The position numbers and the translations under genes are program-made. A stretch of DNA of 64,000 nucleotides from Vibrio taketomensis (GTDB taxonomy: Bacteria > Pseudomonadota > Gammaproteobacteria > Enterobacterales > Vibrionaceae), in NCBI RefSeq assembly GCF_009938165.1, contig NZ_AP019650.1:248001-312000 (forward strand). The letters are read 5' to 3'. Shown in pieces: positions 17,493 through 59,268 of the stretch (its first letter is position 1; each line of letters opens with the position of its first letter). A model generated the notes under the pieces. That model had not been told where the DNA came from. It searched no databases and was given only the letters and a program-made list of their open reading frames with translations.

Positions 17493-17506
17493 CTTATCAG
17501 TAATGA

Positions 17507-21421: not shown

Positions 21422-21432
21422 TTGTATTACAA
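21422..21432. promoter_or_regulatory. Island operator TTGTATTACAA
   Basis: The site lies in the gap upstream of the alcohol dehydrogenase gene and downstream of the EamA permease gene; flanks extend it to ATTGTATTACAAAT. Confidence 0.6.
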
Positions 21433-22545: not shown

Positions 22546-22553
22546 TTTAGATC

Positions 22554-23268
22554 TCATTTACTGAGGCGATAAAGAGTGCCGATGGTGGTATAACCTTGTG
22601 GGTTAATGCGATGTTGTTGTGCTAAGAGTAACTCTGCGGTAGCAACAGCATCGATCAACGCGCTATGGTTGTTATATTCTGGCAAAGCGTATCTTTGTCT
22701 GGTGTTCGAAAGAGTGACGTCAATTTGCTCGTGAGTATTAAACGTTTTTGTAACTGCTTTTCGATACGAAGCGTATCAATCCAGATTAATGGAGGCTGGT
22801 GAATCCCATAACACGCTCAAGATACTTATTGATGAAATTGGTCTCAACCATACATCCATGCGCGACTAAAATTTTGCCATGTGCAGCTTCAAATAAGGTT
22901 GCCATCGCTTGGTGAATGGTGACTCCTTCAGATAACATTTGCGGTGTAATATGATTAATTACTGCGGTTTCTGGTTTTATTTGGAGTCACTGTTGATATA
23001 CATGTGCTGGCTAGAAGCGAGATCTATTTTACTGCCAGTCATGAAAACCCATCCTATAGAGAGTATTAGGTCTTCATTGCAGTCTAAACCTGTCGTTTCG
23101 ATGTCGAGAACGATAAAGCTTACATCATTAGTGGGTTGGCTAGCTTCAAGTTGAGGTCCAAGCAAAAGCGCAAGCAACGACTCAGGTAACGAGTGGCGTT
23201 TTTACAAAACTTTCTCGCGCTCTTGTGATTTGAGCAAATGGGTGAAAGTAGTTGAATAGGCGCTTCAC
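22554..23268 (-). pseudogene. DnaQ-like 3'-5' exonuclease, frameshifted
   Basis: A DEDD-family exonuclease of about 238 residues. ExoI motif FIVLDIETTGLDCNEDLILS carries the catalytic D-x-E. ExoII is in ILVAHGCMVETNFI, and the H/YxxxD region is DTLCQN..ALIDAVATAELLL. The start GTG overlaps the TAG stop of the DUF294 gene (TAGTG at 23268), so the two are translationally coupled. Such DnaQ-DUF294 pairs often sit beside SSS symporter genes in proteobacteria. Confidence 0.78.
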
Positions 23269-25112: not shown

Positions 25113-25199
25113 AGCATCGCGAGAAAAGGTGATTTGTATTATTATATATCCTAAATTTTACGATGTATTCTACAATCTCGTTTATTTATCTCTTTTGCT

Positions 25200-25233
25200 C
25201 ACAAACAAAAGAGCACGTTGATAACGCGCTCTT
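25200..25233 (-). terminator. Terminator after GntR regulator 1
   Basis: Stem AAGAGC-A-CGTT / AACG-C-GCTCTT, with TTTTGTTTGT tail on the minus strand. Confidence 0.65.
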
Positions 25234-25260
25234 CAGTCAAAGATAATTCGTCGAAACTTA

Positions 25261-25941
25261 TTAGATTAAACGGTGCTTAGACTCGAGCAGATGGTTTGCT
25301 GATGCTTGGCGCTCTTCATTACCGGCCATGATTGCATCGTAGATTTGACGGTGTTCTTTAATGCAACTGCCTTCTTCTGAAGAGTGCAATGAAGTTGACA
25401 AACATAGTCGTCAAAATATTACCAAATGGTAGATAGAAGTCATTGCCTGTTGCGTTAAAGATTAGGCTATGGAAACGAGTATCGACTTTCATCCACGCGT
25501 TTTGGTCAAAGTCATCAGCTTCAGCAATCTCAACCATTTGTTGGAAAGTTTCAGATAATTCAATTCGTTGTTCAGTCAGAAGGTGTTTTGCTGCTAGCGC
25601 ACAGGCCTCAGGCTCGATTGCGTCGTAAGCCTAAAATTGTGAGCAAAATTGGTGTATCTGCGAGCCCGTCCATCCACTCAATGAGCTGAGGGTCAAGAAA
25701 GTTCCAATAAGCGCGCTTATGACGCGAGCCCACTTTCGGACGAGATTCTAAAGACCTTTAGATGTGAGAAGTTTTACAGCCTCGCGAAGTGCCGTACGGC
25801 TAATCCCGAACTGTTCACAGCGCTATTTCACCAGGAAGAATCGAACCTTGCGCAAGTTTCTGACAAATACCGCGAGCAATCGCGCGCGACTTGAACGTGC
25901 AGGCTTTTAGAGCCAGAAATTGAATGAAATTCGCCAGACAT
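25261..25941 (-). pseudogene. GntR/FCD-family regulator 1, frameshifted
   Basis: A FadR-subfamily repressor of about 235 residues. It starts at ATG 25941 (MSGEFHSISGSKSLHVQVAR). The winged-helix part is readable (ILPGEIALCEQFGISRTALR, then LLTSKGLLESRPKVGSRHK), followed by the FCD ligand domain with ACALAAK-HLL, FHSLIFNATGNDFYLPFGN. FCD regulators commonly bind uronate-type sugar acids and TnGTnnnACnA-like operators. This matches the TTGTANTACAA sites of the island, making it a prime candidate for the local repressor. It is paralogous to regulator 2. Confidence 0.8.
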
Positions 25942-26280
25942 AAATTCACTTATTGGTTAAATATGTATTATTTAAGCCGTACTATAACACCACCTACTCA
26001 CATACCAAGCGGATGTTCACGTAATAGTAGAGACATGTCGCATCATAGGTTTGTAGAACACAGCTTGTTGTGACGGTGTTGTAGGTTGCGATTTTGATAG
26101 CTTGATTAATGTCAATTATTCATACAAAAGTCGTTATTTAGGCAAGTACTTTGATCAATCCACAAAAACAGCCAGGATTAGCGTCGTTTTACCATTTTAG
26201 AGTTAATTACCCTTGTAAGTAAAAATCTTATTGTATGATTATTTGAAATTGCACTAACTATGAATGATAGGTAAACCACA
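25942..26280. promoter_or_regulatory. Divergent promoter region GntR1 / SDR
   Basis: 339 bp between divergent genes. A degenerate operator (TTGTATGATTATTT at 26231-26244) lies about 40 bp before the SDR start. No other gene seen. Confidence 0.4.
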
Positions 26281-27030
26281 ATGTTTAACGATCTTAAAGG
26301 TAAACGAATTCTAATCACTGGCTCTACTGGTATGGGCAGCAGCGCGTGTATTTGCAAAATACGGTGCAAAAATTGGTATCAATAGCCATAGGTCCAGCAG
26401 ATGCAGTCAGAATCGAATTAACTGCTCTTGGTGGTGACGTTAAGTTTTCCAAGCTAATCTGATGGAAACGGCGGAATGTGAAAAGCTAGTAAAGAATTTA
26501 CTGCGCACTGGTGGTATGGATGTATTGATCAACAATGCAGGTGGTTTAGGTGGTCGTGAGAACTTAGAAAACATCGACGATGAATTCTGCAACCGTGTTA
26601 TGGATTTGAATGCACGTTCTGCGTTAATGACAACTAAGTATTCGATTCTCATCTACGCGCATCGGCTGCGGAATCTGGTGAAACGGCTTGTGTTATCAGT
26701 ACGGTTCAACGCCGCTCGCGAAGGCGGTGGTGTTGGTGCAGGTATTTATGCAGCATCAAAAGCATGGTTGCATGATATTCACCGTAACTGGGTTAAAGAA
26801 TTCACGAAAGATGGTATTCGTTTCAATATTGTTTCTCCAGGCACCATTGATACAGCATTCCACGATGGCAAATCAGATGAACTAAAAGCGGCGATTGCAA
26901 ACAGCATCCCTATGGGTCGTTTTGGTCGTATCGATGAAGTCGCACCAACGTTCGCTTTCTTTCACATGCATGTGCTGGTTATATCACGGGTCAAATCCTT
27001 GATGTAAACGGCGGTCAAATGGCGCCATAA
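26281..27030 (+). pseudogene. SDR-family DEH reductase (4-deoxy-L-erythro-5-hexoseulose uronate to KDG), frameshifted
   Basis: A short-chain dehydrogenase of about 250 residues: MFNDLKGKRILITGSTGMG (cofactor TGxxxGxG), NNAG in MDVLINNAGGLGGRENLE, and catalytic Tyr-x-x-x-Lys in IYAASKAW. The middle block is SPGTIDTAFH and the C terminus is GYITGQILDVNGGQMAP. In alginate pathways an SDR of this kind reduces DEH to 2-keto-3-deoxygluconate with NAD(P)H; the context (kdgF, kdgK, eda, lyases) supports this role. Frame breaks occur near 26333, 26388, 26450, 26655 and 26965. Confidence 0.8.
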
Positions 27031-27070
27031 GCGCAAGTGGTTTCGTTGTCTTGACGAATACTCTGACCAG

Positions 27071-27094
27071 AAAAGCCAGCTTCGTCTGGCTTTT
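27071..27094 (+). terminator. Terminator after DEH reductase
   Basis: AAAAGCCAG / CTGGCTTTT stem with a CTTCGT loop, ending in T4. Confidence 0.75.
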
Positions 27095-27190
27095 GATCGC
27101 AACTATTCTTAGATATTTAAACAATGGAGAAATATCGAGGAGCTGAGCATCCAGGCTCAGTTTTATTATAATTATTAGTAAGGAACGTCC

Positions 27191-27893
27191 ATGGCCAAAT
27201 TTCAATCGTTGACGAATCTCATCGAAAGATCCATGTCCAAGTTGCAAGACAAATTGCTCGTAAAATTTTGTCCGGTGAGCTCAAGCCAGGAGAAGCTCCC
27301 TAGTGAGATGGCGCTGTGCTGCGTTTGGCGTTAGTCGAACGGCATTAAGAGAATCAACAGTTACTTTCAGCTAAAGGCTTGATTGAATCGAGACCGAAAG
27401 TGGTACCACTATACGACCACGTAATCACTGGCATTTTAGATCCACAACTTCTGGAATGGATTCAGGATCTGGAGGATACAGAACCATTTCTAGCTCAATT
27501 TCTCGGAATGAGAAAAGCATTGGAGCCTGAGGCATGTGCTTTAGCTGCAAACAACGCCAGTGCAGACCATAGAAAAGCATTGTCTGTCATCTTTCAAAAA
27601 TGACATTAGCGGCTAATCGTTACGATTACGCTGATTGGACGGAGAACGATCATCTCTTCCACCAGACGATTTTCCTTGCAACAGGTAACCAATTTTATAT
27701 CCCTTTAGTAATATATTATCGACCATTTTAGATTATTTATTGATCATTCCGCTGAGGGCGGACGCTTTTGTTGGATGAGCACCAACAAATCTACGACGCG
27801 ATAATGGCGGGCAATGGCGATAAAGCAAGAATGGCATCTCATATGTTACTTAATGATGATAATCAGAGACTTGCTCAAGTTGCAAACGGTTAG
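27191..27893 (+). pseudogene. GntR/FCD-family regulator 2, frameshifted
   Basis: The start ATG 27191 gives MAKFQSLTNLIERSMSKLQ. The DNA-binding domain runs through SGELKPGEKLPSEMALC and FGVSRTALRESTKLL-like sequence in shifted frames. The FCD domain follows with DPQLLEWIQDLEDTEPFLAQ, MRKALEPEACALAANNASAD, HLFHQTIFLATGNQFYIPF and a tail ending QRLAQVANG at TAG 27891. It is a close paralogue of regulator 1, read in the opposite direction. It is followed by a MATE gene. Confidence 0.8.
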
Positions 27894-27977
27894 TTTTACG
27901 ATGGTTTTATACTGGGTTAGTTTAATAGTTAACAGAATAAAATCATCGTTGTATCTTCAGATTTAGTAGGCTACTCA

Positions 27978-29304
27978 GTGTCTAGCAAAAATATATTCGT
28001 ACAAATCTATCTCTCGCTTGGCCATTGGCAATAAACGCGCTGTTAATGCAGTCGATGCTAATGATTGATGTCTACCTTGTCTCTTCACTTGGTGAAATAT
28101 CACTTGCTGCGATGGGGATTGCATCCACTATTATTTCCTTCGTGCTCGGTATTCAAATGGCGTTTGCTAATGGTTCGCAATTGGTGCTTAGTCGTGCGGT
28201 TGGTTCAGGGCAAGTGAGTTCGTTGAATAAAGGCTTTTGGGCAGGGCTGTTTATTAACGGCATGATTGGGCTGTCATTTTGGCTTGCTTTGAGTTTATTT
28301 GATCGTGTTATCGTTGCATGGCTTACCAGCGATACGAGCTATTTACTGAAACACTTGGCTATTTGATGATAGCGAAATATATCGTGGTATTTAACGCGAT
28401 TACTCAAGTCGTCATTGCGCTGTTTAATGCAAGAGGAAAACTCGAACTCCATTTAAAGGTTACTTGATTGAACTACCAGTCAATGTGCTATGTTCGTACT
28501 TCTTGATTTTGGTTTAACGATTTTCAAGGCTTCGGTGTGATAGGTGCCGCAGCGGCATTGATCGCCATTCGATTGCTGTATTTGGTGACCTGTATCTTTT
28601 AGATAATTCACTAAAGTTGTCAACAAGGGCGTTAGATTCATCAATAAAGCGTAACGCTTTGAATCATTTTACGAAATATTTCCCGTTGCGGCCAACGTAA
28701 CCATGTTGCAAGTTGGTGCTACTGTTTACATGCTTTTCAAACTTTCAATAAATGCGTATGTTGCGATTACTATTATGCCTTGGGTCCGTGCGGGTACTCA
28801 ATTTATTACCGCCTGGGCATTGTCTTCGCCATTACGATTAGTCAGGCTATTGGCGCGAGAAGTTTGATGACTTGCGTAAAATGTTGATACAAGTATTGAT
28901 GTCTCTGTCGCTATTTCATTTTTATCTGCTTTGTTCTTCTTGGGATTAAGCCTGGTGTTACCGAGTTTTTATCCAGAGTTAGAGTCTTCAACTTATCATG
29001 CGTTAAGTGCGATTGCACCGTTGTACATTTTTTACCCATTGCTCGTGGATATAACACGGTTCATGGGCATGTTTTATGCTTTAGGTAAAACAACGGAAGT
29101 ATTCAAAGTTAACTTTACTGGTCAATGGCTCATCGCAATACCACTTTGTGCGTTAGTGATTATCTATTTTGATGGCTCAATTTTTGGGCGTTTGCCGTTA
29201 TGCCACTGGAAGAAATAGTGAAAATGTTGCCGTTTAGGATGATTGCGAGAAAGTCACTTATCGAATTTGATATGCACAAAGCTGATAAATTGATGTATGA
29301 CTAG
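27978..29304 (+). pseudogene. MATE-family efflux transporter, frameshifted
   Basis: An inner-membrane antiporter of about 445 residues. It starts with GTG 27978 (MSSKNIFVQIYLSLAWPLAI). An intact segment at 28025-28366 holds LMIDVYLVSSLGEISLAAMG and IQMAFANGSQLVLSRAVGSG, the usual MATE start. The second half has MLQVGATVYMLF and ALFFLGLSLVLPSFYPELES. Stop TAG 29302. It is distinct from the MATE gene at position 1. Its link to alginate use is unclear. Confidence 0.75.
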
Positions 29305-29396
29305 GTGTGTTGTCGATTTTGAGCCCTCAGGTTTCTCAGAGGGTCTTGTCTATATCATAGTCTTAAACATGATTAATATAAGTGAGTATCAATTAA

Positions 29397-40341: not shown

Positions 40342-40719
40342 ATTACGTCTCTGTATATGTAAAAAGCCAGTAGGGTAATTTAGCCAAGAAATTCTAGCTA
40401 AAGAACATAATATGAATAAATATTCTTGTATTACAATATTATTTTATTGTTTTTGGTTAAGCTTGATTGTGGTCTCAAAAATGTATGTTGATGATTTATC
40501 GGAGGATTGAGTTGGGCGAATAATGTTAAAACAATGTGTGTGAGAAAGGATAAGGGCCGACTAGTTTGCTGAATTATGTTGGTTGATATTGGTGTTTTAG
40601 CTTTCCAATTCACGTAAAACATGAGAGTGGCAATAATGTTGTGTATTTATAAAAAGCCGAGATTAACTCGGCTTTGACTTATTTTCCGAATGTTTAATCA
40701 CTATGAGGCTGTATAGTAA
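40342..40719. promoter_or_regulatory. Promoter of PL6 gene with operator and upstream terminator
   Basis: The operator TTGTATTACAA is at 40426-40436, 85 bp before the PL6 start. A terminator for the PL17 operon is at 40647-40675 (AAAGCCGAG / CTCGGCTTT with T tail on the minus strand). No gene is seen; minus-strand ORFs here are chance. Confidence 0.6.
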
Positions 40720-42871
40720 TTAAATTTGTGCGAATGCGCCTTCCCAAGCGTAATCTACACCATCAAACTCAACACTATGCATTGCGTTTTGATTCTCTTC
40801 ATTTAAGTTACAAATAGCGAAACGGTATGTCGTACCAGATGTTGTTTCGATGCTAATAACAGTACCCGTATCATTGCAACCTAAAACATTAACTGTTTTA
40901 ACTAAACCTCGAGCTCTACAGATGCTTCAATAGACTCATTGAAGTAACCATGTGTCTCTAGTACTGAGGCAAATACATGGTTCTGGCCTGATTGACGTAG
41001 GATCAGTGCAGGCTCGCTCTTCAAGTTGAAGTCTGGATCATTTGCGCCAGTGCGAGTGAAGAACACTTTGCCGCCGTTTGTCGCGCTTGTGATTAGCGAG
41101 TAGTAGCTGTTGTCGTGCAACCAGCTTACTAGTGAGCTGCCTTCAACTTGGCCTGAACCTACATTCCATAGGTGCTGGTAGCCGTTGTCTTCGCCCATTG
41201 GGCGCAGCGTGCTTTCGACATCGTATTCAAAATCTGTACGGATGATTTGACCAGAGTAGTGCACTGGCAGGTCGTATTGGTGCTCTTGGTCTGCTTCGAT
41301 TCGGTAAACATCAATCACAAGTGGTTTTCAAATTCTGGCAATTCAGCAAGAATGATGCTGCGCTGCATGTCAACGCCATTGTAGTAACCAGAAATGCGAC
41401 CACTCATGCCTTGCAGTTTTTCATCATCAGCTTTGAAGAAGTGCTTCGAGCCAATTTGGTTTCAGCTAGCGCTGTGTCAAAGTTGTTTTGCGTCTTTTGG
41501 TCAACCGTTACCGTGTTGTGCGCGACCGTCTGCTTACAGTAAGACTTGTTCTCTGGGATGTAACGACCACCAAATTTTGGCTCAACGTTTACCCAACGAC
41601 CAAAGCCGTAATCGTGCAGCACTTCATGACCGCGGTTAAACACGCTCAGGTGTAGACCATCGTAGTGACCGTGGTCTAGGGCTGAGTGGTACTGGTGATC
41701 GCTGCCGTGTTGACCAAACCAGATAAGGCCATAGTGTCGTCATCTTTCTCGTCACGGTGACGAAGAATGCTGACGCCGCCTTTTCGCCTTCTGGGCCATC
41801 AGTTACGAATAGGCTACCCCAGTTGAACGGTTTGATGTTGTCTGTCGCTGCAACCGCATCAGACAACGTTTTACCTGAGATATGAACCCAAACGTCTTGC
41901 TGGTGGTCTGCCATGCCAAGTAGCGTTTCAGACTGCTCGTAACGGTGGAAACATACTGATGTTGCCATGATTACGCCTTCATCATTAATCGAAATCGTTT
42001 TCGATGAATCGTTTAGGCAGGCAAAGTACCATCTGGGAATGCCGTCTTAAATACTGCGTAAGACGTTGTCTTGATTACTGAATCGTTGAACTCGTAAATA
42101 CCAAGCTCAGGCTGACGACGTTCAATCGCTTCTGCGAATAGGTAGATTGGACGTAGCGAGAAACGGTGGTAGTAAGGACCTTCCATGTAGTAGCCGTCTG
42201 GCGAGAACAGTTGGTCTAGCTGAGCTAGGAAGCCGCCGCTGACTTTGTCCAGTTTCAAGCCATAAAGTGCTTTGTCTACCGCTTCTTGATCGTTAATCGC
42301 GTAACCACAGATACCGACTGCTGCTACTGCCCACAAACCGTGGTTGTGTACGATATCAAAGTCATGACCGTAAGTTACCACGAACAGCTCAATCATTTGC
42401 TTGAACAGGTCGTTTTCAATCAGTGTTTTTGCTCTTCTTCCAAGGTGAATGCAGCTATACGCACAAGACGCGTATAGCATCCACATGTTCTCATTTAGAG
42501 TTTGGTGGAAGATCACCCGGAGGGTTAGAGTCACGGCTGGTGTTGCTTTCTAGCGTTGGGTAAACCTTCGCGTAAGCCGTTAGCATATCTACGATGTAAT
42601 TGCGGTATTTCTGTTCGCCAGTGATAAGGAATAGGCGACCCGCGAGATCGATGTGGATGTAGTTTTGCTTATGGCGGTTGTGTTCGTAACCACCGCCTTC
42701 GCCGTGACCAGGAACTTCAATACCTACTTGTGCCATGTAAGCGTCAGTTTGTTTGATATCACGCGCTAGTGCCTTGCCTAATAGGCTATCCGTGCCAAGT
42801 GCTTTGCTCAGCTCTGCCGCTTCTTCAAAGTTCATTAATAGCGGTTGGTAAGGTTGGTTTTGGTAACTCAT
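40720..42871 (-). pseudogene. PL17-family oligoalginate lyase A, frameshifted
   Basis: A cytoplasmic or periplasmic exolyase of about 717 residues releasing unsaturated uronate monomers. From ATG 42871 it has GEGGGYEHNRHKQNYIHIDL, the catalytic Asn-His in DIVHNHGLWAVAAVGICGYA, Tyr in MEGPYYHRFSLRPIYLFAEA, and the heparinase II/III-like C-terminal sheet (HEVLHDYGFGRWVNVEPKFG, KQTVAHNTVTVDQKT). Breaks lie near 42505, 42015, 41740, 41640, 41410, 41320 and 40905. It is 2 bp downstream of the second PL17 gene, so they form one operon. Confidence 0.85.
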
Positions 42872-42873
42872 TA

Positions 42874-45047
42874 TTATTTCTCCTGCTCGAATGCGTTGTT
42901 TTCTACACTAGTCACTTCTAGAGAGTAGAAACCATTCCAGCTATAGGTTTTACCGTTAAATTCTACTTGATGTGGGGTTTGGTCGTTAGCGCCTAGTACA
43001 TTGCTGATCATCACAGTAACGAGTGATTTCTTGGTTGCGATTTCTACGATGCTACCAACGGCGTTGTAACCCACGACGCGGATATCTTTCACCTGACCAC
43101 GTGCATTCACCGACTGCTCAAACTCTTCGTTGAAGTAGCCGTGTGTTTCTAGCACAGAAGCAAATAGCGTCGATTCGCCCTTGCTGCGCAGAATGAATGC
43201 GGGTTCGCTACGTAAGTTAAAGCTTGGGTCATTGGCGCCAGTGCGAGTGAAGATCACTTCATTGTCACCGTTCTGCTTGGTGCTGTTGCTCGTGCCTAAC
43301 CAAGTGTAGTAGGTGTTGTTTGTAGCCAGCTAACCAGTGCCGTATCTTGCACGTTGCCGCTAGCGACTTTCCAAAGGTGTTGGTAACCGAAGTCTTTGCC
43401 AAGAGTGCTCAATTCACCAAAGCTTTGGTAATCAAAGTTAGTACGTACGATTTGACCATCGTATTGATGAGAGTAGTCGTACTGATGTTCGCATTTACTT
43501 TCGATGCGATAAAGGTCTAGTAATAACGGTGCTTCAAGCTCATCTAGGTTAAGCATGAACACACTGCGTTGCATGTCTGTATTTGGGTAATGGTCGTTCG
43601 CAAACGCACTCATACCGTTGATTTCTGTGCCCTCTACTTTAAAGAAGTGAGGCAAGCCATGGACTGAATCAGCGCGCTCAACATCGAAACCATTCTGACA
43701 TTGTTCATCAATCGTCACCGCATTATGTGCGATGGTTTGACGAGCGTACGATTTGTTTTCATCTAGGTAGCGACCGCCGAATTTAGGTTCTACGTTAACC
43801 CAGCGACAGAAGCCGTATTCACGTAGCACTTTGACCTCGGTTGAAGAAAGTAATTCCAAGCGTATCGAAGTTTCCATGTCCCATACCGTGTTGACCGTAG
43901 TTCATCACTAGCTGTGATACGTCACCGGCTTTATCTTGCATACGGATAAAACCTTGGGCACCATTGTTACCTTTGGACCTTCGTTTAACTCTACGCTAGG
44001 CCAGAAAGGCATGCCGATTTCACGGTCTGCGATGGTTTTATCGTAGGCTTGAGAAAGCTCAAGACCACATGGGTGCATCCAAACGGCGTTTTGAATCTTC
44101 GCCATGCCTAGGATGTTGTCATCCATACCGTAGTGTTTGCTGTAAACGCTCACTGCAACTTGAACACCCATATCGGTAATGCTCATGGTGCGAGATGCAT
44201 CATTCAAGGCTGGAACTCACCATTCGGATAAGCCGTTGCTAGCATTGCTTGTACTGTATTACCAATCACTTTGTCTTTGTAGTTATAGATGTCTACTTCA
44301 GGCATATGACGGTGTACCACTTCAGCCAATACACAAAGAGGACGAATGGCGTAGCGATGATAGTAAGGACCTTCCATATAGTAACCAGAAGGGGCAAACA
44401 GTCGAGAGATTTGTGCTAAGAAGCCACCCGTATCGTCACGGTCTTGACCGTATACCGACATCTCAAGATATTCCGGCTTGCCAATCGCTAACCCACAAAT
44501 ACCGACAGCCGCGACAGCCCAAATACCATGGTTATGAATACGGTCAAAGTCATGAGCGTATTTTACCGTGAACATCTCAAGCATTGGTTCGAAAACACCT
44601 TCAACTACGGCTTTGCGCTCTTCTGCTGTCATGACAGATGCAACGCAAGAGTACGCAAGACTGGTAAACATCAACCAACAGTGTTCGTTTAGGATCTGGT
44701 GGAAAAGGCGACCGGTTGGGTTAGTGTTTTCTGTACGTGGAAATCAAAGTTAGGTACTTCTCTGCGTATATAGCGAGAAGATCTTTAACAAATTGTGCGT
44801 ATTTCTCTTCTTGAGTGATCAAGAATAAACGACCTGCCAAGTTCATGTAGGTATAGTTTTGCTTATGGCGGTTGTGCTCATAGCCGCCAGCTTCGCCGTG
44901 AGCTGGTACGTCTAAAGGTAGACGCATAAACAATTCGAGCTCTTTGCGGTTCGCTTCGATGGATTTACCCATCAAACTCGGCTTTCCGACTTCTTTTCGT
45001 AGTAATTCGACTTCTGCCTCAGTCAATAAAATCGGTTGTGCAGTCAT
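42874..45047 (-). pseudogene. PL17-family oligoalginate lyase B, frameshifted
   Basis: A tandem paralogue of the preceding lyase, about 724 residues. ATG 45047 starts MTAQPILLTEAEVELLRKEV. Active-site blocks are again intact: GEAGGYEHNRHKQNYTYMNL, FDRIHNHGIWAVAAVGICGL, YYMEGPYYHRYAIRPLCVLA and RQTIAHNAVTIDEQC. It diverges enough from copy A (different N terminus and C terminus NNAFEQEK) to suggest different substrate preference, as for OalB/OalC. Breaks lie near 44740, 44215, 43970, 43850 and 43300. A half-preserved operator (ATTGTATTAC, 45095-45104) lies just upstream. Confidence 0.85.
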
Positions 45048-45383
45048 TTATTATGACCCTCAATAATTGGAATATGAAAACGTCTCGACATAAAGTAATA
45101 CAATAATAACTTTATTTTAAGTTCCATTAGGGAAAAGAGAGATCAAGCTCACTATAAATTATATAAGCAATTGATTTATAAGCGGTCTATTATTGGTGGT
45201 TAGGTTTTTATGGCATGTTGCGATCTTGTTTTATCGTCTTGTTTATGACTTGAATCACACAAATAATGATATATTGTATGACAAATTATGTCGTTGATTT
45301 ATGATTTGTATTGCAATTTACCACCAATCGTTAAGCTCACGGTTTAACGTATTTAGGTGGTTTCAACATTTAGGAGTCAAAGC
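45048..45383. promoter_or_regulatory. Divergent promoter region PL17 / kdgF with two operators
   Basis: 336 bp hold TTGTATGACAA (45274-45284) and TTGTATTGCAA (45306-45316), 32 bp centre to centre (about three helical turns), plus the degenerate copy near the PL17 start. This is the densest operator cluster of the island and would coordinate lyase and kdgF-kdgK-eda expression. Confidence 0.65.
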
Positions 45384-45750
45384 ATGAACCCATTTTTATC
45401 GCTAGTGAGCACCCATGGGAAGAACTCGGTGATGGTATAAAACGAAAAATTGTCGCTTATACAGACGATTTAATGGCTGTGCACGTTTGTTTTGATAAAG
45501 GTGCGATTGGTACTGCACACACCCATGAAATTCACGATCAGATTGGTTATGTCGTTAATGGTAGCTTCGAAGCGGAAGTTGATGGTCAAAACCATCCTTA
45601 AAGGGTGACGCGTTTATTGCCCGCAAGCATCTGCTTCATGGAGCGGTAGCGCTTGAGCAAGACAGTGTCCTACTTGATATTTTAACCCAGCCCGTGAAGA
45701 CTTTCTTAAATAAACGTTCGCGCAACCTCGTTGCTAAGGCAAGCATATGA
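45384..45750 (+). pseudogene. kdgF: KdgF cupin (uronate-linearising enzyme), frameshifted
   Basis: A small cupin of about 123 residues that converts the cyclic 4,5-unsaturated uronate to the open-chain keto form. Start ATG 45384 has AGGAG upstream. Readable: WEELGDGIKRKIVAYTDDLM, metal-binding AHTHEIHDQIGYVVNGSFE, EVDGQNHP, KGDAFIARKHLLHGAVALEQ and LLDILTQPVKTFL. Two single-base losses (near 45401 and 45600) break it. Its stop overlaps the kdgK start (ATATGA), so the two are coupled. Confidence 0.85.
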
Positions 45751-46676
45751 AAAAAATGAATATTGCAATCATTGGCGAATGTATGGTTGAGCTACAGAAA
45801 AGGATGGTCAGCTTCGTCAAACGTTTGGTGGTGATACTCTAAATACGGCGGTGTACTTATCGCGTTTAACGCAATCTTATGACCTAAAAGTGAGTTATGT
45901 CACTGCTGTGGGTCATGATCCATTTAGTCAAGAAATGGTGGATTCTTGGTCTCAAGAAGGTATTGATACTGGCTTGGTACTCAAGGTAAGAGAAGCAACC
46001 TGGTATCTATTACATTGAAACGGATGAGGCAGGTGAGCGTTATTTCCATTATTGGCGAAGTGACTCGGCGGCAAAGTATTTGTTCGAGCAAGATGATTCA
46101 AAACGAATCATAGATCAACTTTATCGTTATGATGCGGTTTATCTGAGCGGAATTACCCTAGCTATCTTAACGGAAGAAGGAAGGGCGCAATTATTTAGCT
46201 TCCTTGCTGATTTCAAGGCTCAAGGTGGGCAAGTTATTTTCGATAATAACTATCGTCCTAAACTGTGGAAAAATCGTGAAGAAGCGATTTCATGGTATCT
46301 AAAAGCCCTGAAAAACACGGACATTGCTTTATTAACGTTTGAAGACGATCAGTTACTTTACGGCGATACAAATCTAGAACAGTGTGTTGAGAGAACGGCT
46401 TCGCTCGGCGTTAAAGAAATAATCATCAAACGAGGTAGCCAAGCGTGTCTCGTTGTTGCCGAAGATCAGCAGCACTTTGTTGAGCCGAATAAGGTCGATA
46501 ATGTGGTCGATACCACTGCGGCAGGCGACTCTTTTAGCGCGGGTTTTCTCGCGAAAAGGTTTGTGGGTGGCACGCCAACGGAGTCAGCTTTTAGTGGGCA
46601 CTGTATGGCTGGTACCGTTATTCAATACAAAGGCGCCATCATTCCTTTAGAGGCGATGACCCAAATTTCATTGTAA
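45747..46676 (+). pseudogene. kdgK: 2-keto-3-deoxygluconate kinase, N-terminal frameshifts
   Basis: A PfkB-family sugar kinase phosphorylating KDG to KDPG with ATP. MKKMNIAIIGECMVELQK starts it; substrate-binding FGGDTLNTAVYLSRL follows after a break. The C-terminal 198 residues are intact, with IFDNNYRPKLWKN, the GTAGDSF-type catalytic motif as DTTAAGDSFSAGFLAKRFVG and the C-terminal QYKGAIIP. Breaks near 45797 and 45995. Coupled to kdgF and followed by eda. Confidence 0.88.
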
Positions 46677-46683
46677 TCGAACG

Positions 46684-46713
46684 AGTTGATATCATGACCA
46701 AGTGATATCAACT
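46684..46713 (+). promoter_or_regulatory. Perfect inverted repeat between kdgK and eda
   Basis: AGTTGATATCA / TGATATCAACT, an 11-bp perfect stem with an 8-nt loop, followed by GTTTTATTG and then the eda ribosome site GAG. It may be an mRNA hairpin tuning eda relative to kdgK, a weak terminator, or an operator. Confidence 0.5.
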
Positions 46714-46730
46714 GTTTTATTGAGAGCTTT

Positions 46731-47348
46731 ATGACTACGTTAAATGATCAACTGCACAGTTAAAGTAATTCCTGTTATTGCCATCAATAAGGTTGAAGAT
46801 GCGATTCCTTTAGGTCGTGCACTGGTTGAAAATGGCATGCCTTGTGCTGAAATCACGTTCCGTACCGAGTGCGCTGTCGACGCGATTCGTGTCATGCGTA
46901 ATGAGTTCCTGAAATGCTTATTGGCGCAGGTACCGTGTTGACGAACGAGCAAGTTGACCAAGCGATAGATGCTGGCGTGGATTTCATTGTTAGCCCTGGT
47001 TTTAACCCACGCACAGTTCAGTACTGTCTTGATAAGCAGGTTCCGATTGTACCTGGAGTGAACAACCCAAGCTTGGTTGAACAAGCGATGACATGGGGTT
47101 ACGCACATTAAAGTTTTCCCAGCGGAGCCTTCAGGTGGTGTGGCGATGCTCAAAGCGTTAACGGCTGTATATCCAGTTAAGTTTATGCCTACAGGTGGCG
47201 TTAGCCTTTCAAACATTGACCAATACTTAGCTGTGCCGTCGGTGCTAGCTTGTGGTGGTACTGGATGGTGCCAACCAACCTGATCGACGAAGGGCGCTGG
47301 GACGAACTGGGTAAACTCGTGCGCGATGCGGTTGACAATGTAGCGTAA
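46731..47348 (+). pseudogene. eda: KHG/KDPG aldolase, frameshifted
   Basis: Class I aldolase splitting KDPG to pyruvate and glyceraldehyde-3-phosphate, the last step of the alginate route. ATG 46731 (MTTLNDQL); after a break VIPVIAINKVEDAIPLGRAL, the catalytic Glu region CAEITFRTECA, IGAGTVLTNEQVDQAIDAGV, FIVSPGFNP and the Schiff-base Lys in KVFPAEPSGG, then FMPTGGVS. Breaks near 46755, 46907, 47105 and 47245. Third gene of the kdgF-kdgK-eda operon. Confidence 0.88.
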
Positions 47349-47387
47349 ACTTCTGATATTAAATTAGAATCATATTTAGTTACTTTG

Positions 47388-47411
47388 AAGCGAGCTTAGG
47401 CTCGCTTTTTT
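47388..47411 (+). terminator. Terminator of kdgF-kdgK-eda operon
   Basis: AAGCGAGC / GCTCGCTT stem, TTAG loop, T tail. Confidence 0.8.
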
Positions 47412-47598
47412 GCCTATAATGTGATTTCGGTTTTAATGTGGACCATAACTACAGAGATCTTTTGCTTATTTGTATTACATAATGGTTGATTGATTCAATG
47501 TTTATTAAGTCTCAATGGCAAGTGTTGCTTATTTTGAAAGGGATTTTCATGGTTTTATTGTCACGATAAGTTTTGTTTGAGATCACAATAAAAGATTA

Positions 47599-47609
47599 TT
47601 GTAGTACAA
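47599..47609. promoter_or_regulatory. Island operator TTGTAGTACAA before symporter 4
   Basis: Perfect palindrome 62 bp before the symporter start, the mirror image of the site before symporter 1 (60 bp upstream). A weaker copy TTGTATTACAT is at 47470-47480. Confidence 0.65.
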
Positions 47610-47671
47610 ATGAAAAATAAATCGAAGTAAGCTAGAAATCATAAAATGATCACACTTAAGAGGCTGAAAAA

Positions 47672-49421
47672 ATGACTATAGATACTCGTTGTTCTTGCCT
47701 ACTTCTTCTTCCTTGTTGCAATTGGTTGGATGTTTCGTAAGTTCACTACATCGACCAGCGATTACTTTAGAGGTGGTGGTAAGATGTTGTGGTGGATGGT
47801 AGGTGCTACCGCCTTCATGACTCAATTTTCAGCATGGACGTTTACAGGTGCCGCAGGACGCGCGTTCAGCGACGGTTTCGTTGTTGTAATCCTATTCTTG
47901 GCTAATGCATTTGGCTATTTCTTAAACTACCTTTATTTCGCCCCGAAATTCCGTCAATTGCGTGTAGTGACAGCCATTGAAGCTATTCGTCAGCGTTTCG
48001 GTAAAACTTCAGAGCAGTTTTTCGTGGGCAGGCATGCCGGACAGCTTGATTTCTGCGGGTATTTGGTTGAACGGTCTCGCAATCTTTGTTGCGGCGGTCT
48101 TCAATATTCCTATGGAAGCGACCATCATCGTAACCGGTTTAGTGCTGATGCTGATGGCGGTAACTGGAGGTTCGTGGGCGGTTGTTGCTTCTGACTTTAT
48201 GCAAATGCTGGTTATCATGGCGGTAACGATTACATGTGCGGTCGCTGCTTACTTTCAGGGCGGTGGTATCGGTAACATCGTGTCAAAATTCCATGGCGAC
48301 TTTATGTTGGGTAACAACTTAAATTACATCAGTATTTTGTTCTTTGGGTGGTCTTTATATTCGTTAAGCAGTTTGGTGTGATGAATAATAGCATCAACGC
48401 GTATCGCTACTATTGCTAAAGACAGTGAGAATGCGCGTAAAGCTGCAGGTCTTGCTTGCGTATTGATGATTGTGGGTCCAATTATTTGGTTCCTACCGCC
48501 TTGGTATGTCGCGGCATTTATGCCTGACTTTGCCGAGCAATACGGGTCGGTTGGCGGTGATGCAGCTTATTTAGCCTTCGTACAAAACGTAATGCCAGCA
48601 GGTATGGTGGGTCTTCTTATGTCAGCGATGTTCGCAGCAACCATGTCTTCAATGGACTCGGGTCTTAACCGAAATGCGGGCATATTTGTGATGAATTTTA
48701 TAGTCCAATTGTTCGCCCGCATGCGTCACAAAAGAGCTGGTGGTTGTTAGTAAAGTAACGACGATCATGATGGGCTTCATCATCATAGGTATTGGTTTGT
48801 TCATTAACTCTCTTCGCCACTTGAGTCTATTTGATATCGTATTAAACGTTGGTGCTTTGATTGGTTTCCCGATGCTTATTCCTGTACTGCTTGGTATGTG
48901 GATTCGTAAGACTCCTGACTGGGCGGGGTGGGCAACGCTAGTGGTTGGTGGTTTTGTTTCTTATATATTCGGTATATCACCGCAAGCAGAAGACGTTGAG
49001 CGCCTGTTTGGCTTAGAACAAGCTTTCACTGCACGTGAATGGGCGGATCTGAAAGTTGGTTTGAGCCTAGCGGCACACGTTGTCTTCACCGGTGGTTTCT
49101 TCTTACTCACCACTCGTTTTACAGGGGCTATCGCCTGAGCGTGAGAAAGAAGTCGATCAACTGTTTGAAAACTGGAATACGCCGTTAGTTGCCGATAGCG
49201 AAGAGCAGCAAAATCTAGATACTAAACAACGCGGTATGCTAGGTAAGCTGATTAGTGTTGCCGGCTTTGGTATCCTAGCGATGGCGTTGATTCCAAATGA
49301 ACCAACAGGGAGAATGTTGTTTATTTTATGTGGTTCAATTGTCTTATCGGTTGGGGTGTTGCTGGTCAACGCAGCGCGAGGTAATCAAAGCCCAAAGTTG
49401 TTGGCTAGAAGTCGCAGTTAA
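47672..49421 (+). pseudogene. Sodium:solute symporter 4 (alginate-oligomer type), frameshifted
   Basis: An SSS symporter of about 585 residues, paralogue of symporter 1. ATG 47672 (MTIDT), then VLAYFFFLVAIGWMFRKFTT, GKMLWWMVGATAFMTQFSAW, FNIPMEATIIVTGLVLMLMA, AMFAATMSSMDSGLNRNAGI and RKTPDWAGWATLVVGGFVSY. It ends at TAA 49419. Breaks near 47688, 48025, 48390, 48700, 48740 and 49125. It uses the same operator arrangement as symporter 1. Confidence 0.82.
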
Positions 49422-49447
49422 TTGTGACTAACAGGTCGAGCGATAAT

Positions 49448-49473
49448 AAAAATCACCCAACGGGGTGATTTTT
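49448..49473. terminator. Bidirectional terminator after symporter 4
   Basis: AAAAATCACCC / GGGTGATTTTT perfect 11-bp stem with AACG loop. Confidence 0.85.
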
Positions 49474-49565
49474 ATCGAATATCTTATCGTTGGGCTAATG
49501 CTTGGCATGAGCTTCGTTTAATTATGTTACACGGTACAACAACTTTTTATACGTGGCTTTTGTTA

Positions 49566-49754
49566 TTAACGAGCGCAATCTTTGCTGTCTCCTTCGCTAA
49601 TGGTTGCGATTTCTGAATCTTTCGTTGTGGCAAGTTTGGATGTCATATCTACTAGATATTGATCTTTCAGTTTACAGAAACGTGAGTAGGTGAAGTATGA
49701 GATGACTGCAACGATAATTGGGAATGCTAAGAACAGAAATTCAGTATTTACAAT
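49566..49754 (-). pseudogene. C-terminal fragment of a membrane transporter
   Basis: An open stretch of about 62 codons reading IVNTEFLFLAFPIIVAVISY (a last transmembrane helix), then FTYSRFCKLKDQYLVDMTSK and a hydrophilic tail ending KDCAR at TAA 49566. It resembles the end of a major-facilitator/GPH-type sugar symporter. The rest of the gene is absent; it lies between symporter 4 and the transposon end. Confidence 0.4.
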
Positions 49755-50078
49755 AAGTTCTGTTTAGGGATTAAAACAGAATTTCCAAATAAGTAAGAAG
49801 TGATATTTATACTTTGGCACTTTCTGGTTGGTGTCTGAAAATGTCACTGGCCTTAACATAGAAGTGTTCAATACGTATCGCGAATCTCCTAAACAGTGAG
49901 GGCTGTAAACTGGTGATTGCATTATTTGACCCAAAAAGTTCATACACTCTTTTTGTCTATTGAGCCTTCTGACTAGACACTAAAATGATCCAACATAAAT
50001 AGGGTTGATGATGCATTCTCACTAATACTGTAAGTAATTTTCTTACGGCGAACCTTGTAGTGCATCGATGGGTTCACA
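49755..50078. other. Degraded DNA inside the Tn7-like end
   Basis: Two short minus-strand coding-like ORFs lie here: 49807-49947 (VYELFGSNNAITSLQPSLFR...) and 49973-50065 (MHYKVRRKKITYSISENASS...). The second starts directly next to the innermost end repeat, where the first transposon gene (tnsA) would begin, but I cannot match it to TnsA. Confidence 0.35.
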
Positions 50079-50182
50079 AAATATCAACTTATGGTTGTTT
50101 TGGAAATATCAAAATATGGTTGTTTTTGATAACATTATGAAAGAAAAGAAGTTGTAAATATCACTTTATGGTTGTTTCAACA
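50079..50182 (-). mobile_element. Transposon end of a Tn7-like (type I-F3 CRISPR-associated, Tn6677-like) element
   Basis: Three repeats of the form AAATATCA-N4-ATGGTTGT at 50079-50098, 50104-50123 and 50156-50175 (17 of 20 positions invariant) match the TnsB-binding sites of Tn6677-like ends. The terminal sequence, on the minus strand, is TGTTGAAACAACCATAA, starting TGT at 50182 as in the Tn7 group. Spacing is tight between the two inner sites (25 bp) and wide to the outermost (52 bp), as in the left, TnsA-side end. The next five bases, GCCTA, are the expected 5-bp target duplication. No tnsABC, tniQ or cas genes remain in the window. Confidence 0.82.
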
Positions 50183-50222
50183 GCCTATAGATTAATTGAG
50201 AACCGCTTTTAGCGGCTCTTTT
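50180..50222 (+). repeat. Direct repeat copy 2 (second guaC terminator, right edge of island)
   Basis: 42 of 43 bases equal 16380-16422, including the terminator hairpin; the single difference (A50201) weakens the stem. It abuts the transposon end and is followed by backbone-like sequence (TTGTCTGAGTCG) unlike that after copy 1. Confidence 0.9.
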
Positions 50223-54279: not shown

Positions 54280-54607
54280 ACAACGATGGAAACGGAGACG
54301 AAGGTTGTACTACGTTACCATTAAAGACCAAATTGTATGAGATAACGAATTGTATTTTAAACAAAGAAATAAATGAATGAGATAGAGTGAAAAGCTATAA
54401 AGAGTGACGTTAAACAAGAGAAATGCGGTTGCCGTTAATTTTCTCCCGTAAAGGTGCTTTCAAACAGTTTTTGTGCGTAATGTTGGAATTAACACTAAAA
54501 GCGATGTTGTTTTGTTCGATAGCAATTACATTTAAAACAAATGTTTGACTTTGTTTTACCTTGAAATTATTTTAGTCACGAATTTTTATCTACAAGGAAT
54601 GGTTTTA
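54280..54607. other. 328-bp divergent promoter region
   Basis: AT-rich gap between the TetR-like gene and the HD-GYP gene; the TetR protein may act here. No clear palindrome seen. Confidence 0.35.
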
Positions 54608-57600
54608 GTGAAAAAGTACGTTCGCAATCGGATTTCGCTAAGAGTGGTACTTGGTGCTATGTTTGTATGCTGTACGATCATAACCGCCGTGACGGCGATA
54701 TCGTTACAGTACTATTTTTCGAGTAAGAAAGAGTTAGAGCACACCTTAAATCGATACAATACTATTGCAGCAAGTGTTTCACAGAATCTATCAAATCTAG
54801 AAAGTTTGGCTGAAAATGCCGCGCGCAGTGGGGCGCAACTTGTCTCTCTTACCGGTATTGATTTTGCTGATAAACGGATTGTGATTCCTCTTTCTGAATT
54901 ACTTGCGCGCGACTCAAACTTACATAGTATTTTTGTCGCGAAATCAAATAACGACTTTTTCCAACTTATCAGCCTGACGTCAGAAGATGTTAGGGCTCGT
55001 GTCGGCGCGAAAAACAGCGATCGATGGTTACTCGTTTTGCACCAAGGTGAAGGCAAGCAAAGACGTAAGACTTCGGCTTTTTATGACGAGAACTTTAAAC
55101 AAACGGCGAGTAAAGTAGAATTTAGCAACTTTTTGCCGACTCAACGCAGTTGGTATGAAAATGCGAGCACGGAACGAATTTACGCAACCACACCTTATTT
55201 ATTCAACACTCTAAAAGTGAACGGTGAGAGTTTCACTATCAAAGTTGACGGCTCTGATACGGTCGTTGGTATTGATGTATTGTTGTCTTCACTTGAAAAA
55301 CAGCTCACGAGTCGCTTCGTCGAAAACAAAAAAAATCTCAAGGCGGAATCTTTTATCTTCGGCGGTGATGGTCAACTTATTGCCACCAATAAGCAGATCG
55401 ATATTGAAGACCGTATTCCTCTCGTGACGCCTGTTGTTTTGACTGAAGAACAACAAGCATTCGTTAAATCAGCCCCTGAGCTCAAAGTTTCTAACCAAAA
55501 TGATTGGGGGCCTCTTGATTATACGGTAGGGGGGCGTCCTAACGGTTTCACGATTGATTTGTTTAAAATGATATCAGAAATGACTGGGCTGAAATTTAAG
55601 TTCGTCAATGGACGCTCATGGGACGAGTTAGAGAATGATTTTTCTCAAGGCAATATAGATATATTGCAGTCGATCTCGGATCCAAGCGATTTTGCTCAAA
55701 TGGGCATTTTGGGCGAGGTTTTGTATCGAGGTAACTTTGCTTTACTCACTAAGCAAGAGAATGTTGGCATTACAACGTTAGAATCCATTCAAAATCAGCG
55801 GATTGGTATATTGAGGGGTTGGAGTATTCAAGACAATTTGCTCAAGGCGTTTCCAAACTTGACGTTGATATCTTATCCGTCGTTGCATGCAGCGATAGAT
55901 GATGTTGAATCGGGTAACATTGCGGCCGTGCTGGATATGAAGCAAATTCTACAAAGTAAAGTACAAGAAAAGTTTCGCCAAGGGTTGAAGATTGTTCCGA
56001 TAGAATCACCAATTTTACCTCGTGAGTTTTACTATTCGATACGAAAGAATATCAGGAGCTTGCTGATATTATCGATTTAGCCATCAACAGTATTACGCCA
56101 GCTCAAAGGCAGGAACTTCGTGAAAAATGGTTCACTGAAGGAGCGGCACAATCAACATTCACTTATATTCCGTATCCGGAATTGTTGGAATTTAGTCACC
56201 ATCAAGATAGTGACAATAGCGCAAAATTAATGACCATCAACGGCGTCGAAAAGTATTTGTATATCTCAAAGCTTAGAGAGTCTAACTCACGGTACTTTGC
56301 AGTTGTTGTCCCTCAATCTTACATAATGGCGGGTGTGCACGAAGCTATTTTTTATTCCATCGGTGCATCACTACTGGTTTTACTCTTGTTACTGCCATTT
56401 GCATGGTTGTTCGCGGCACCCATATCAAAACCTATTAATCAGTTAAGAGAACAAGTTCAGTGGATTAAGTTACGTCAGTACTCAAAAGTAAATCGAGTGC
56501 ATAGCCGGATTGAAGAAATCCATCAGTTAGGTTTATCGGTCATTCGTGGGCGTAACGCGTTGCAGAATTTTGAAGAGCAGCAGAATCAGTTCTTTGAGTC
56601 CATGATTCAATTAGTCGCACGAGCCATCGATGAAAAGTCAGCGTATACCGCAGGGCACTGTAATCGCGTACCAGAAATCGCTTTAATGCTGGCCGAAGCG
56701 GCTGAAAAATCGCAATGTGACAAGCTCAAAGATTTTCAATTCAACAATGATGAAGAGCGTCGTGAGTTTCGTGTCGCAGCTTGGCTGCATGATTGTGGCA
56801 AGATCGCCACGCCTGAGTATGTCGTCGATAAAGGCAGTAAGCTTGAAACGAACTACAACCGTATTCACGAAGTTCGTATGCGCTTTGAGGTATTGTGGAG
56901 AGATGCTCAGATTCAATACTTGTTATCAAAGCTAGATTCAGAGGTTGATCTCGATAACGATTTGCGTCCCCAATTAGACAAGTTGAGAGAAGAGTTTGCA
57001 TTTATTGCGAACGCAAATATCGGTGGTGAGTTTATGTCTGACCAAGATATTGAACGATTAAAGCAACTAGCTGAGCAAGAATGGGTACGTTATTTTGATT
57101 GTGGCTTAGGGTTATCGCCACTTGAAGAAACGCGCTATCACCCACAACCTACACCGGCCGTTGAAAAGCTTTTAGCAGATCGACCAGACCATATCGTTGC
57201 AAGAGATCAGCCCTTTGCTGATGTGACGCAGTTTGGGATAAACATGACGGTTCCGACTCATCTATATAATCATGGAGAAATCTATAACCTTTCTGTAAGA
57301 CGTGGAACCTTGTCGGAAGAAGAGCGCTTTAAGATTAATGAACACATGATCAGTGGTATTAAGATGCTCGAGAGCATTCCATTCCCACCTGAACTGGAGC
57401 GAGTGCCTCGGTATGCGACGACTCATCATGAGACACTCATTGGAACCGGCTATCCGCGCGGATTGAGTCGTGAGGATCTGTCAATTCCGGAAAGAATTTT
57501 GGTGGTGGCTGATATTTTTGAAGCACTGACAGCCTCAGATCGACCATATAAAAAAGCCAAACCGCTGAGCGAAGCAATCGATATTCTTTCAAAGATGGTT

Positions 57601-57732
57601 GAAAATGGTCATATTGATAAGGATATTTTTGAGCTGTTGTTAACCAGTGGCGTCTACCAACGATATGCAAAGGCTTATTTACCAGAAAGGCTCATTGATA
57701 TTGAGAATGTGGATAGATATCTCAAGCGTTAG
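54608..57732 (+). pseudogene. HD-GYP c-di-GMP phosphodiesterase with periplasmic solute-binding sensor, one frameshift
   Basis: About 1040 residues. An N-terminal TM helix (VVLGAMFVCCTIITAVTAIS) and a dCache-like region precede a family-3 solute-binding domain (VSNQNDWGPLDYTVGGRPNG, NGRSWDELENDFSQGNIDIL). A second TM (FYSIGASLLVLLLLLPFAWL) with HAMP follows, then an HD-GYP domain: AYTAGHCNRV, AAWLHDCGKIATPEYV, INEHMISGIKML, HHETLIGTGYP. About 150 residues are inserted between the HD and GYP halves. GTG 54608 is preferred (AAGGA 9 nt upstream). One G is missing near 56046 (CGAAAGAATATC), ending the first frame at 56080. Confidence 0.85.
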
Positions 57733-57861: not shown

Positions 57862-58866
57862 TTATTTCACTGTGATGCTCATCGCGAGACCTGGCGAGTA
57901 GTTTTTGTCACCAGAATAGTAGGTTTTGCTACCTTCTTTGGCTTTGGCAATCGCTGAACCGTAAACCCAGTAGGTTTTCTCGTCATACGTGTCTTGTACG
58001 ATACCATAAGGTTTATCGCCTAATCCTTGGAATGTTTCGCCAATACGGTCGTATTGGAACCAATCCATAATTTCGCCGCTGTCGTCGGTCGCTTTAATAT
58101 TAGGCATTTTCTTACCTTGTCCTAATACTTGCGCGCTACTTACCGACATATGTGCCTGTTCTTGGTTTTTACACTCTTTATTACATGACGGCTTACTGTC
58201 TGCGCTTAGCGTCCAGTAAACAGGGATACGCTCGCCTTTGGCGTAAAAGTAGTCCGCATGATTGAAAGGAATGTCTTGTTTCGCTTCAACAAAACCGACA
58301 ATAACATTATCGAGAATATCGGTGACTACAACCTTAAAGAAGTCGTGTGCGCGTGAGCTTTTCACGAAACTAGGGACGTTCAGATACGGCTGTTTTGCAG
58401 GTACGTATTTACCGTCAATGTTTACGTGCAGCATTGGAACGCCATTCTTGTGGAACAAGGTCGCATGTCCAACCGTGCCACCTGCAACATATTCGTTGGC
58501 AAGGCTCAAATTGAGATCAAATGATTCTGCAAATTCTCGTCCTCCCGTTGCTTTTACGTCAACAGGCATCTCTTGAAAGTCAGCGATATTGTCGTAGCTT
58601 GACATCATTGCCAATACGTCATCAAAGCTCTCGCCTGAATTTGCAACATACTGAACGGTTTTCGAGTACTTTTTCGTTTTCTCTTTGCCTTTGTCGTTCG
58701 TGTATGTGTATTTATCTTTGAGATGTAGAATAACCGAAATGTCACCATCAGCGTTGGTGTCCATATGGCGGATTGAGCCATTGCTCTCTGTGGTATAAAT
58801 ATTTGCAAAGCTAGAGGTTGCACAGAGAGTAGCCATAATGCCAAGAGCAAGCGTGGATTTTTTCAT
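57862..58866 (-). CDS. Secreted/periplasmic hypothetical protein
   Basis: 334 residues with a clear signal peptide (MKKSTLALGIMATLCATSSFA). A Lys-rich strand region (KDKYTYTNDKGKEKTKKYSK) follows the cleavage site. The centre has HATLFHKNGVPMLHVNIDGK, and one Cys pair (PSCNKECKN) probably forms a disulfide. The C terminus is YSGDKNYSPGLAMSITVK. Predominantly beta by pattern. No family recognised; the neighbour is a pseudopilin on the same strand. Confidence 0.7.
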   Translation of the reverse strand: MKKSTLALGIMATLCATSSFANIYTTESNGSIRHMDTNADGDISVILHLKDKYTYTNDKGKEKTKKYSKTVQYVANSGESFDDVLAMMSSYDNIADFQEMPVDVKATGGREFAESFDLNLSLANEYVAGGTVGHATLFHKNGVPMLHVNIDGKYVPAKQPYLNVPSFVKSSRAHDFFKVVVTDILDNVIVGFVEAKQDIPFNHADYFYAKGERIPVYWTLSADSKPSCNKECKNQEQAHMSVSSAQVLGQGKKMPNIKATDDSGEIMDWFQYDRIGETFQGLGDKPYGIVQDTYDEKTYWVYGSAIAKAKEGSKTYYSGDKNYSPGLAMSITVK

Positions 58867-59268
58867 GATCTAAGTTTCCGTTCAGTTTTCACTAAACTCA
58901 GTAATGCAGCCCAGAATCTTAAATTCTGCTGTCACTTTGCGTCCCTGCCTCACGACAAGTTTGCCCTTAGAGTTATTTCCGCGAATATGGTATCCGTTTG
59001 TGTGACACTGGTTCCACAATTACAGCATCTACAATCGGTGATGGAGTTCACAAGTTTGTGATATTCCTTCAAAAAACAAAACGATAACGCTCACCTCTCA
59101 GTGCTTAACTGTGAGGTGGGTCATAGTGTTTGGGCGCTTTGGGGAAGCGTAGGTGTGAATTGATAAGTGTTGCGAATTGATGAGTATCGACTGAGGGCTT
59201 AAGGCGATATTGTGCAGGAAGACAATCTACTCTATGGGTGAAAATTTTTATTTTTTAGCCAGAAGGTG
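58867..59268. other. 402-bp gap with pseudopilin terminator
   Basis: An imperfect hairpin (CACCTCTCAGT / ACTGTGAGGTG, 59092-59119) followed on the minus strand by T-rich GTTTTGTTTTTTG probably ends the pseudopilin transcript. The rest is promoter DNA for the secreted-protein gene. Confidence 0.5.

Follow-up and report, generated by a model that had tools for sequence, protein, structure and literature searches.

The DNA analysed here, referred to as the window, is a stretch of 64,000 nucleotides from Vibrio taketomensis. Coordinates follow the numbering of the window, its genome is designated G000, and LE denotes a transposon left end. The window carries an intact guaC gene with its terminator, a broken cluster for alginate/uronate utilisation, and an LE that stands before a second copy of the guaC terminator:

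15323-16366, plus strand: guaC (GMP reductase), attachment gene, intact open reading frame, 96% identical to the V. renipiscarius protein
16307-16338, plus strand: guaC stretch matched by guide-like sequences in related elements (comparison with G122, G134 and G047)
16380-16422, plus strand: guaC terminator copy 1, with GCCTA inside at 16383-16387
16473-49421, no strand assigned: cluster for alginate/uronate utilisation, its frames broken by numerous small deletions (colinear blocks shared with G119, G091 and G078; Pfam domains of ten intact relatives)
49440-50000, no strand assigned: junction stretch between the cluster and the transposon end (sequence comparison)
50030-50046, no strand assigned: conserved inner box GTAAGTAATTTTCTTAC (alignment of 17 ends; consensus GAAAGTAACTTTCTTAC)
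50079-50098, plus strand: innermost TnsB-site-like repeat (site scan, 17-end alignment)
50104-50123, plus strand: middle TnsB-site-like repeat (site scan, 17-end alignment)
50156-50175, plus strand: terminal TnsB-site-like repeat (site scan, 17-end alignment); the transposon stops at 50182 (TTTCAACA)
50183-50187, plus strand: GCCTA, candidate target-site duplication on the left-end side
50180-50222, plus strand: guaC terminator copy 2, which differs from copy 1 by a single mismatch

The scan of the window returned three exact AAATATCA-N4-ATGGTTGT sites within 50079-50182, together with the terminal TTTCAACA, exactly as a first-pass annotation had described them. The complete site, AAATATCANNNNATGGTTGT, is found without mismatch on the plus strand at 50079, 50104 and 50156, and five other matches in the window carry three mismatches each; shuffled sequence yields a mean of 1.35 matches at up to three mismatches. 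In the whole 4.3-Mb genome these three are the only exact sites, the five additional ones at two mismatches are scattered singles, and no other site cluster, whether in an unrelated context or as a partner right end, was found at up to two mismatches. The start-to-start spacings of 25 and 52 and the terminal TGT...ACA are those of left ends of I-F3 Tn7-like elements of the guaC group, and the end reads ...GTTTCAACA, with GCCTA following at 50183. Over 152-154 columns the window end is 70-77% identical to 16 other Vibrio left ends, all of which precede guaC-type terminators. The 17 aligned ends have in common the sites, the outer TTTCAACA and the inner box GAAAGTAACTTTCTTAC; the window end has gaps at three places (four columns) that are absent from all other 16. 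The inner box, which resembles a palindrome, lies approximately 33 bp inward of the innermost site. Conservation extends inward to about 50000-50030, which gives the feature a length of approximately 155-180 bp rather than the 104 bp initially assigned. The alignment identifies 50000-50182 as the left end of a family that stands before guaC-type terminators in many Vibrio. A search of plasmids for this end returned one weak Photobacterium match.

With regard to the insertion point, the two terminator copies form a 43-bp direct repeat with 42 of 43 bases identical, and the guaC stop codon ends at 16366, so that the GCCTA at 16383-16387 lies 17-21 bp beyond it; both features had been anticipated by the annotation. 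The GCCTA that follows the LE equals this guaC site, but evidence for the putative target-site duplication comes from one side, as no right end borders the copy at guaC. In relatives, the 5-mers flanking both ends, compared by eye, agree in G047, G005, G175 and G030 and do not in G078. Four elements were searched for guide-like sequences: a 32-base sequence differs from the genome's own guaC by 6 mismatches in G134 and 7 in G122, a weaker one in G047 by 10, and G078 had none. Compared with the window guaC, the sequences of G122, G134 and G047 differ at 7, 9 and 11 of 32 positions, respectively, mostly at every third base. The guide-like sequences of G134 and G122 have similar flanks, which we take to be atypical repeats. 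A script placed the start of the guaC-side end at +47 to +51 past the guide-matched stretch in 13 genomes, and returned no value for four more genomes with an end beside guaC. In the window, 49 bp separate the end of 16307-16338 from the end of GCCTA, which corresponds to +49 if the GCCTA at guaC was the target. This spacing and the guide-like matches of related elements tie the relic to guided insertion at guaC, the target that had been proposed, and the guaC-distal position of the left end is likewise as expected. Taken together, the left-end alignment and the insertion spacing identify the window feature as an I-F3-type left end, from an element that targeted guaC.

The remainder of this element was sought in the whole genome. 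TnsB was not found, although the same search was positive in all six genomes with a guaC-adjacent right end, and Csy3/Cas7 was not found either. The annotation had regarded the other end and all transposition and cas genes as missing, which holds for the partner end and, among the genes, for TnsB and Cas7; the TnsA search gave a signal in none of 14 controls and carries no weight on TnsA. No guaC guide above the shuffled level was found in the window between 16425 and 64000. A candidate CRISPR-repeat remnant, one 18-base match with three mismatches at 1817, lies far from the locus and was taken as chance. The relic cannot be mobile by itself.

The same layout was found in other Vibrio genomes. 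With a 176-base query spanning the feature, matches at E <=0.001 were obtained in 69 of 196 genomes of the genus, the window's own included, many of them by the terminator alone; in 25 other genomes the matches span at least query positions 45-123, where the left-end sites lie. Thirty of the 69 were followed, again including our own, and four of these (G119, G096, G143 and G097) match by the end tip and terminator only. By eye, guaC was readable in 29 of the 30, running straight into a transposon end in 17 and into a terminator in 12. In nine of the 30 (G000, G119, G124, G074, G143, G097, G004, G195 and G060; eight of 29 besides our own), guaC and its terminator are followed 6.6-49 kb downstream on the same contig by a left end, or its tip, with a terminator. 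The other three of the 12 have the end on a different contig (G029, G096) or 266 kb away (G153). Fifteen genomes were searched for TnsB: at >=60% identity it was found in none of the nine, compared with six of the six with a guaC-adjacent right end, one of which was the source of the query. G143 and G004 have matches of approximately 30% on other contigs, and the absence carries little weight in the drafts G124 (91% completeness) and G097 (94%). Cas7 was not found in seven of the nine; G143 and G004 have it on a contig other than that of guaC. As nine genomes have this layout without a close TnsB, solo left ends behind guaC and a terminator recur. Solo left ends at guaC were not mentioned among the papers listed by a literature search that was weak and partly swamped by unrelated papers.

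Two of these genomes are informative with regard to displacement. Vibrio sp. AND4 (G124) resembles the window in having guaC with a terminator, a distant LE with a terminator, and no TnsB found; in contrast to the window, its tyrosine integrases are clear and a 3' fragment of guaC is present. At its loci L156-L158, a terminator, paired repeats, and an integrase or part of one stand behind each of guaC, the guaC 3' fragment and the LE. This stack indicates that islands pile up at guaC and push older elements away. G119 likewise has guaC and its terminator, then 29 kb, then a left-end tip and a second terminator, and neither TnsB nor Cas7 was found in its genome. Unlike in the window, its duplication runs past the terminator, the terminator and flank being repeated over 1.13 kb at 97% around the interval, and its alginate cluster lies outside, 16 kb beyond the LE. 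As paired repeats are absent there, this duplication suggests a homology-anchored event. In G074 the terminator of guaC is unlike that after the LE, and behind it lie paired repeats and an integrase fragment; the guaC terminator thus probably came with an island. A separate arrangement was observed in G122, G134 and G191 (L050, L051 and L052), where the end beside guaC (TGTAAAA...ACCATACGTTGA) and the left end are of different families; the left end lies downstream in G122 and G134 and on another contig in G191. These are perhaps stacked elements of two families.

The interval itself comprises the 33-kb cluster, and the LE lies 34 kb downstream of the guaC terminator. Ten intact relatives examined with Pfam include alginate lyase/heparinase-type lyases, an SSF symporter, a PfkB kinase, a KDPG aldolase and an Fe-ADH, among others. 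For the most part, 16473-29308 and 40651-49406 run colinear with G119, as does a good share of the remainder with G078. The junction stretch, 49440-50000, is present in a single copy in the genome, and no relative was found among loci L069-L191 besides the window's own. To the right of the LE, only the gene region 54593-57723 was matched among 80 guaC loci (up to 10 kb downstream), namely in V. rhodolitus (75%, approximately 9 kb after guaC) and at one V. sinaloensis locus (54%). Also outside the interval, at 54545-57732, a break around 56080-56182 leaves two ORFs in place of one gene with a solute-binding domain; we read this gene as HD-GYP type. A c-di-GMP-I riboswitch lies at 58897-58975 on the minus strand, upstream of a 334-aa gene (57862-58866).

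We consider it probable that an element inserted by guidance at guaC, that the locus was later rewritten from the guaC side, and that the LE was left stranded, insertion and replacement being steps that we infer. The insertion site of an I-F3-type element would have been GCCTA, 49 bp beyond the guaC protospacer, and the arrangement produced would have been guaC-GCCTA-RE-tnsABC...LE-GCCTA-terminator. At a later stage, DNA anchored in guaC and bringing an intact, same-lineage guaC terminator would have taken the place of the RE and of the tns and cas genes, which made up the guaC-proximal part; its inner junction would have arisen by illegitimate or site-specific recombination. guaC and its terminator would thereby have been restored, with the LE and the old terminator cut off behind the alginate cluster, 34 kb further downstream. 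Such rewriting from the guaC side would also be the best account of the recurring layout. The left-end similarity, the +49 position compared with 13 genomes, the guide-like matches, the 43-bp repeat, the recurring TnsB-less layout and the displaced layouts of AND4 and G119 all argue for this reading. It is weakened by the failure to find a trace of the displacing event in the window (tblastn with one AND4 integrase), by the loss of the right end, which leaves the target duplication on one side, and by the very many small deletions, which may make the assembly unreliable there. The terminator repeat includes a spacer held by no fetched locus outside the window genome, and the restoring DNA was thus probably of the same lineage. 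The available text of PMC5361080 proposes for Vibrio T6SS loci that illegitimate recombination, anchored by homology, moves old modules downstream; the same text describes such recombination as rare, which counts against it here. Between a decayed element and a replaced interior, the two options initially offered, the replaced interior fits better than simple decay.

The cluster could instead be the transposon's own cargo; the losses would then be confined to the RE and the tns and cas genes, and the guaC terminator would have been restored. Its position between the guaC terminator and the LE agrees with this, and large cargo is described for V. parahaemolyticus Tn7-like elements with mini I-F CRISPR systems (PMC6360697 and PMC6537148, in excerpt). 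However, among the matches listed, none of 14 other left-end genomes has a symporter-region match between guaC and the LE on one contig, and in G119, G074 and G031 this match lies approximately 38-41 kb beyond the LE. We regard original cargo as plausible, if on balance doubtful.

An alternative modelled on AND4, in which the older element was pushed away by a tyrosine-integrase island that had stacked at guaC and subsequently lost its integrase, is unlikely. Paired GTGGCGACA-type repeats do follow the guaC terminator in five of the nine genomes (G074, G124, G004, G060 and G143), and integrase matches abut such terminators in AND4, with fragments in G074 and G047. In the window, however, neither paired repeats after terminator copy 1 nor a guaC 3' duplicate is present, and tblastn with one AND4 integrase, run as a search for a trace of the displacing event, returned no match. 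The window resembles G119 in its lack of integrase traces; the choice between displacement routes is one that we infer.

A low-quality or mis-joined assembly, which would make the adjacency of cluster and LE spurious, appears unlikely. The window differs from its relatives by 4.2-16.2 frame-breaking indels per kb in nine aligned blocks, compared with 0-1.6 in three controls. Two of the nine blocks are the same stretch aligned to a second relative; the seven non-overlapping blocks hold 240 frame-breaking indels over 28,428 aligned bases. Of 264 indels in all, 236 are deletions, 147 of one base and 52 of two (199 together); none of the deletions reaches 15 bases, and two insertions are of 15 and 19 bases, in blocks picked by BLAST, between which larger losses escape counting. 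Genuine decay is expected to include larger deletions, and this spectrum of small indels therefore favours assembly error, as does the density, which peaks on the left edge at 16 per kb without a steady fall rightward. On the other hand, open reading frames of >=150 aa cover approximately 0.27 of 17-50 kb, whereas 57 of 60 other 20-kb stretches (54 on C2, 6 on C1) reach >=0.62, the exceptions being C2:700-720 kb (L233) and C2:740-780 kb (L234 and L235; 0.49 and 0.46). Moreover, the LE and terminator copy 2 agree with relatives. Changes on the window branch fall on codon positions 1, 2 and 3 in 48, 18 and 169 cases (G091: 14, 7 and 119; G119: 59, 23 and 321); the raised share of positions 1 and 2 may reflect relaxed selection, although random errors would give the same pattern. 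Breakage may also fall on dispensable clusters, since the cluster at C2:703-715 kb shows a similar spectrum. We favour real decay of dispensable clusters over poor sequence.

This second cluster, in L233 (G000:C2:700001-720000), is likewise broken by small deletions, at 3-5 frame-breaking indels per kb against relatives 67-69% identical; the control comparison gave no alignment. Judged from its translations alone, it looks like aryl-polyene-type biosynthesis. A superintegron was rejected as the cause of the few long ORFs at C2:700-720 kb, as no direct repeats of >=40 bases were found there.

A chance origin of the repeats, unrelated to any transposon, is so improbable that it can be dismissed: the site scan against shuffles, the genome-wide scan and the hits in relatives contradict it, and the alignment of 17 ends rules it out.

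The surprising part is the frequency of the same half-lost layout. We tentatively propose, while judging it somewhat unlikely, that half-eviction is a regular fate of CRISPR-transposons at guaC and that the nine of 30 genomes with this layout are its products. Recombination anchored in guaC would repeatedly restore guaC and its terminator, remove the RE, tns and cas genes, and strand the distal cargo and LE; if true, a mobile element would be turned into a fixed genomic island. Solo ends are invisible to a tnsB-seeded boundary search such as that described in the available part of PMC8649781. A left end with a displaced guaC terminator could serve as a tag for past insertions, which opens the question of how hosts lose guided transposons, and guaC emerges as a place where mobile elements of two kinds stack in Vibrio.

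The relic is well identified and sits in a known hot spot; it is a fossil, not a new kind of system. Type I-F3a elements at guaC/IMPDH in V. cholerae HE-45, which we take to be Tn6677, and in V. parahaemolyticus ISF-25-6 use the same attachment gene as the window. The window differs from them: searches of its genome returned neither a right end nor TnsB nor Cas7, and a guaC terminator lies on both sides. The proposed match to Tn6677-type ends is borne out by the left ends in Table 1 of PMC6360697 (in excerpt), attaaatatcactttatggttgcatcaaca for HE-45 and tacaattatcaatttatggttgtttcaaca for ISF-25-6, compared with gtaaatatcactttatggttgtttcaaca in the window. By convention, the right end is the one upstream of the transposition genes (PMC11406308, in excerpt). 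In the V. renipiscarius element (G078, L151) the right end adjoins guaC and is followed by genes with TnsA-like (PF08722), rve and Mu C-terminal (TnsB-like), and TniB (TnsC-like) domains. The tnsA-tnsB-tnsC genes thus adjoin the guaC-proximal end, which rules out the initial assignment of the window feature as the TnsA-side end. Neither Cas7, sought in the genome, nor a guide-like guaC match, sought in the element, was found in V. renipiscarius. This element nevertheless provides what had been suggested as a search in related Vibrio, the same end with tnsA-tnsB-tnsC attached: a left end of the same family lies at a distance of 10.5 kb from guaC, ahead of a terminator of the same kind, and, unlike in the window, the right end and the tnsABC-like genes are kept.
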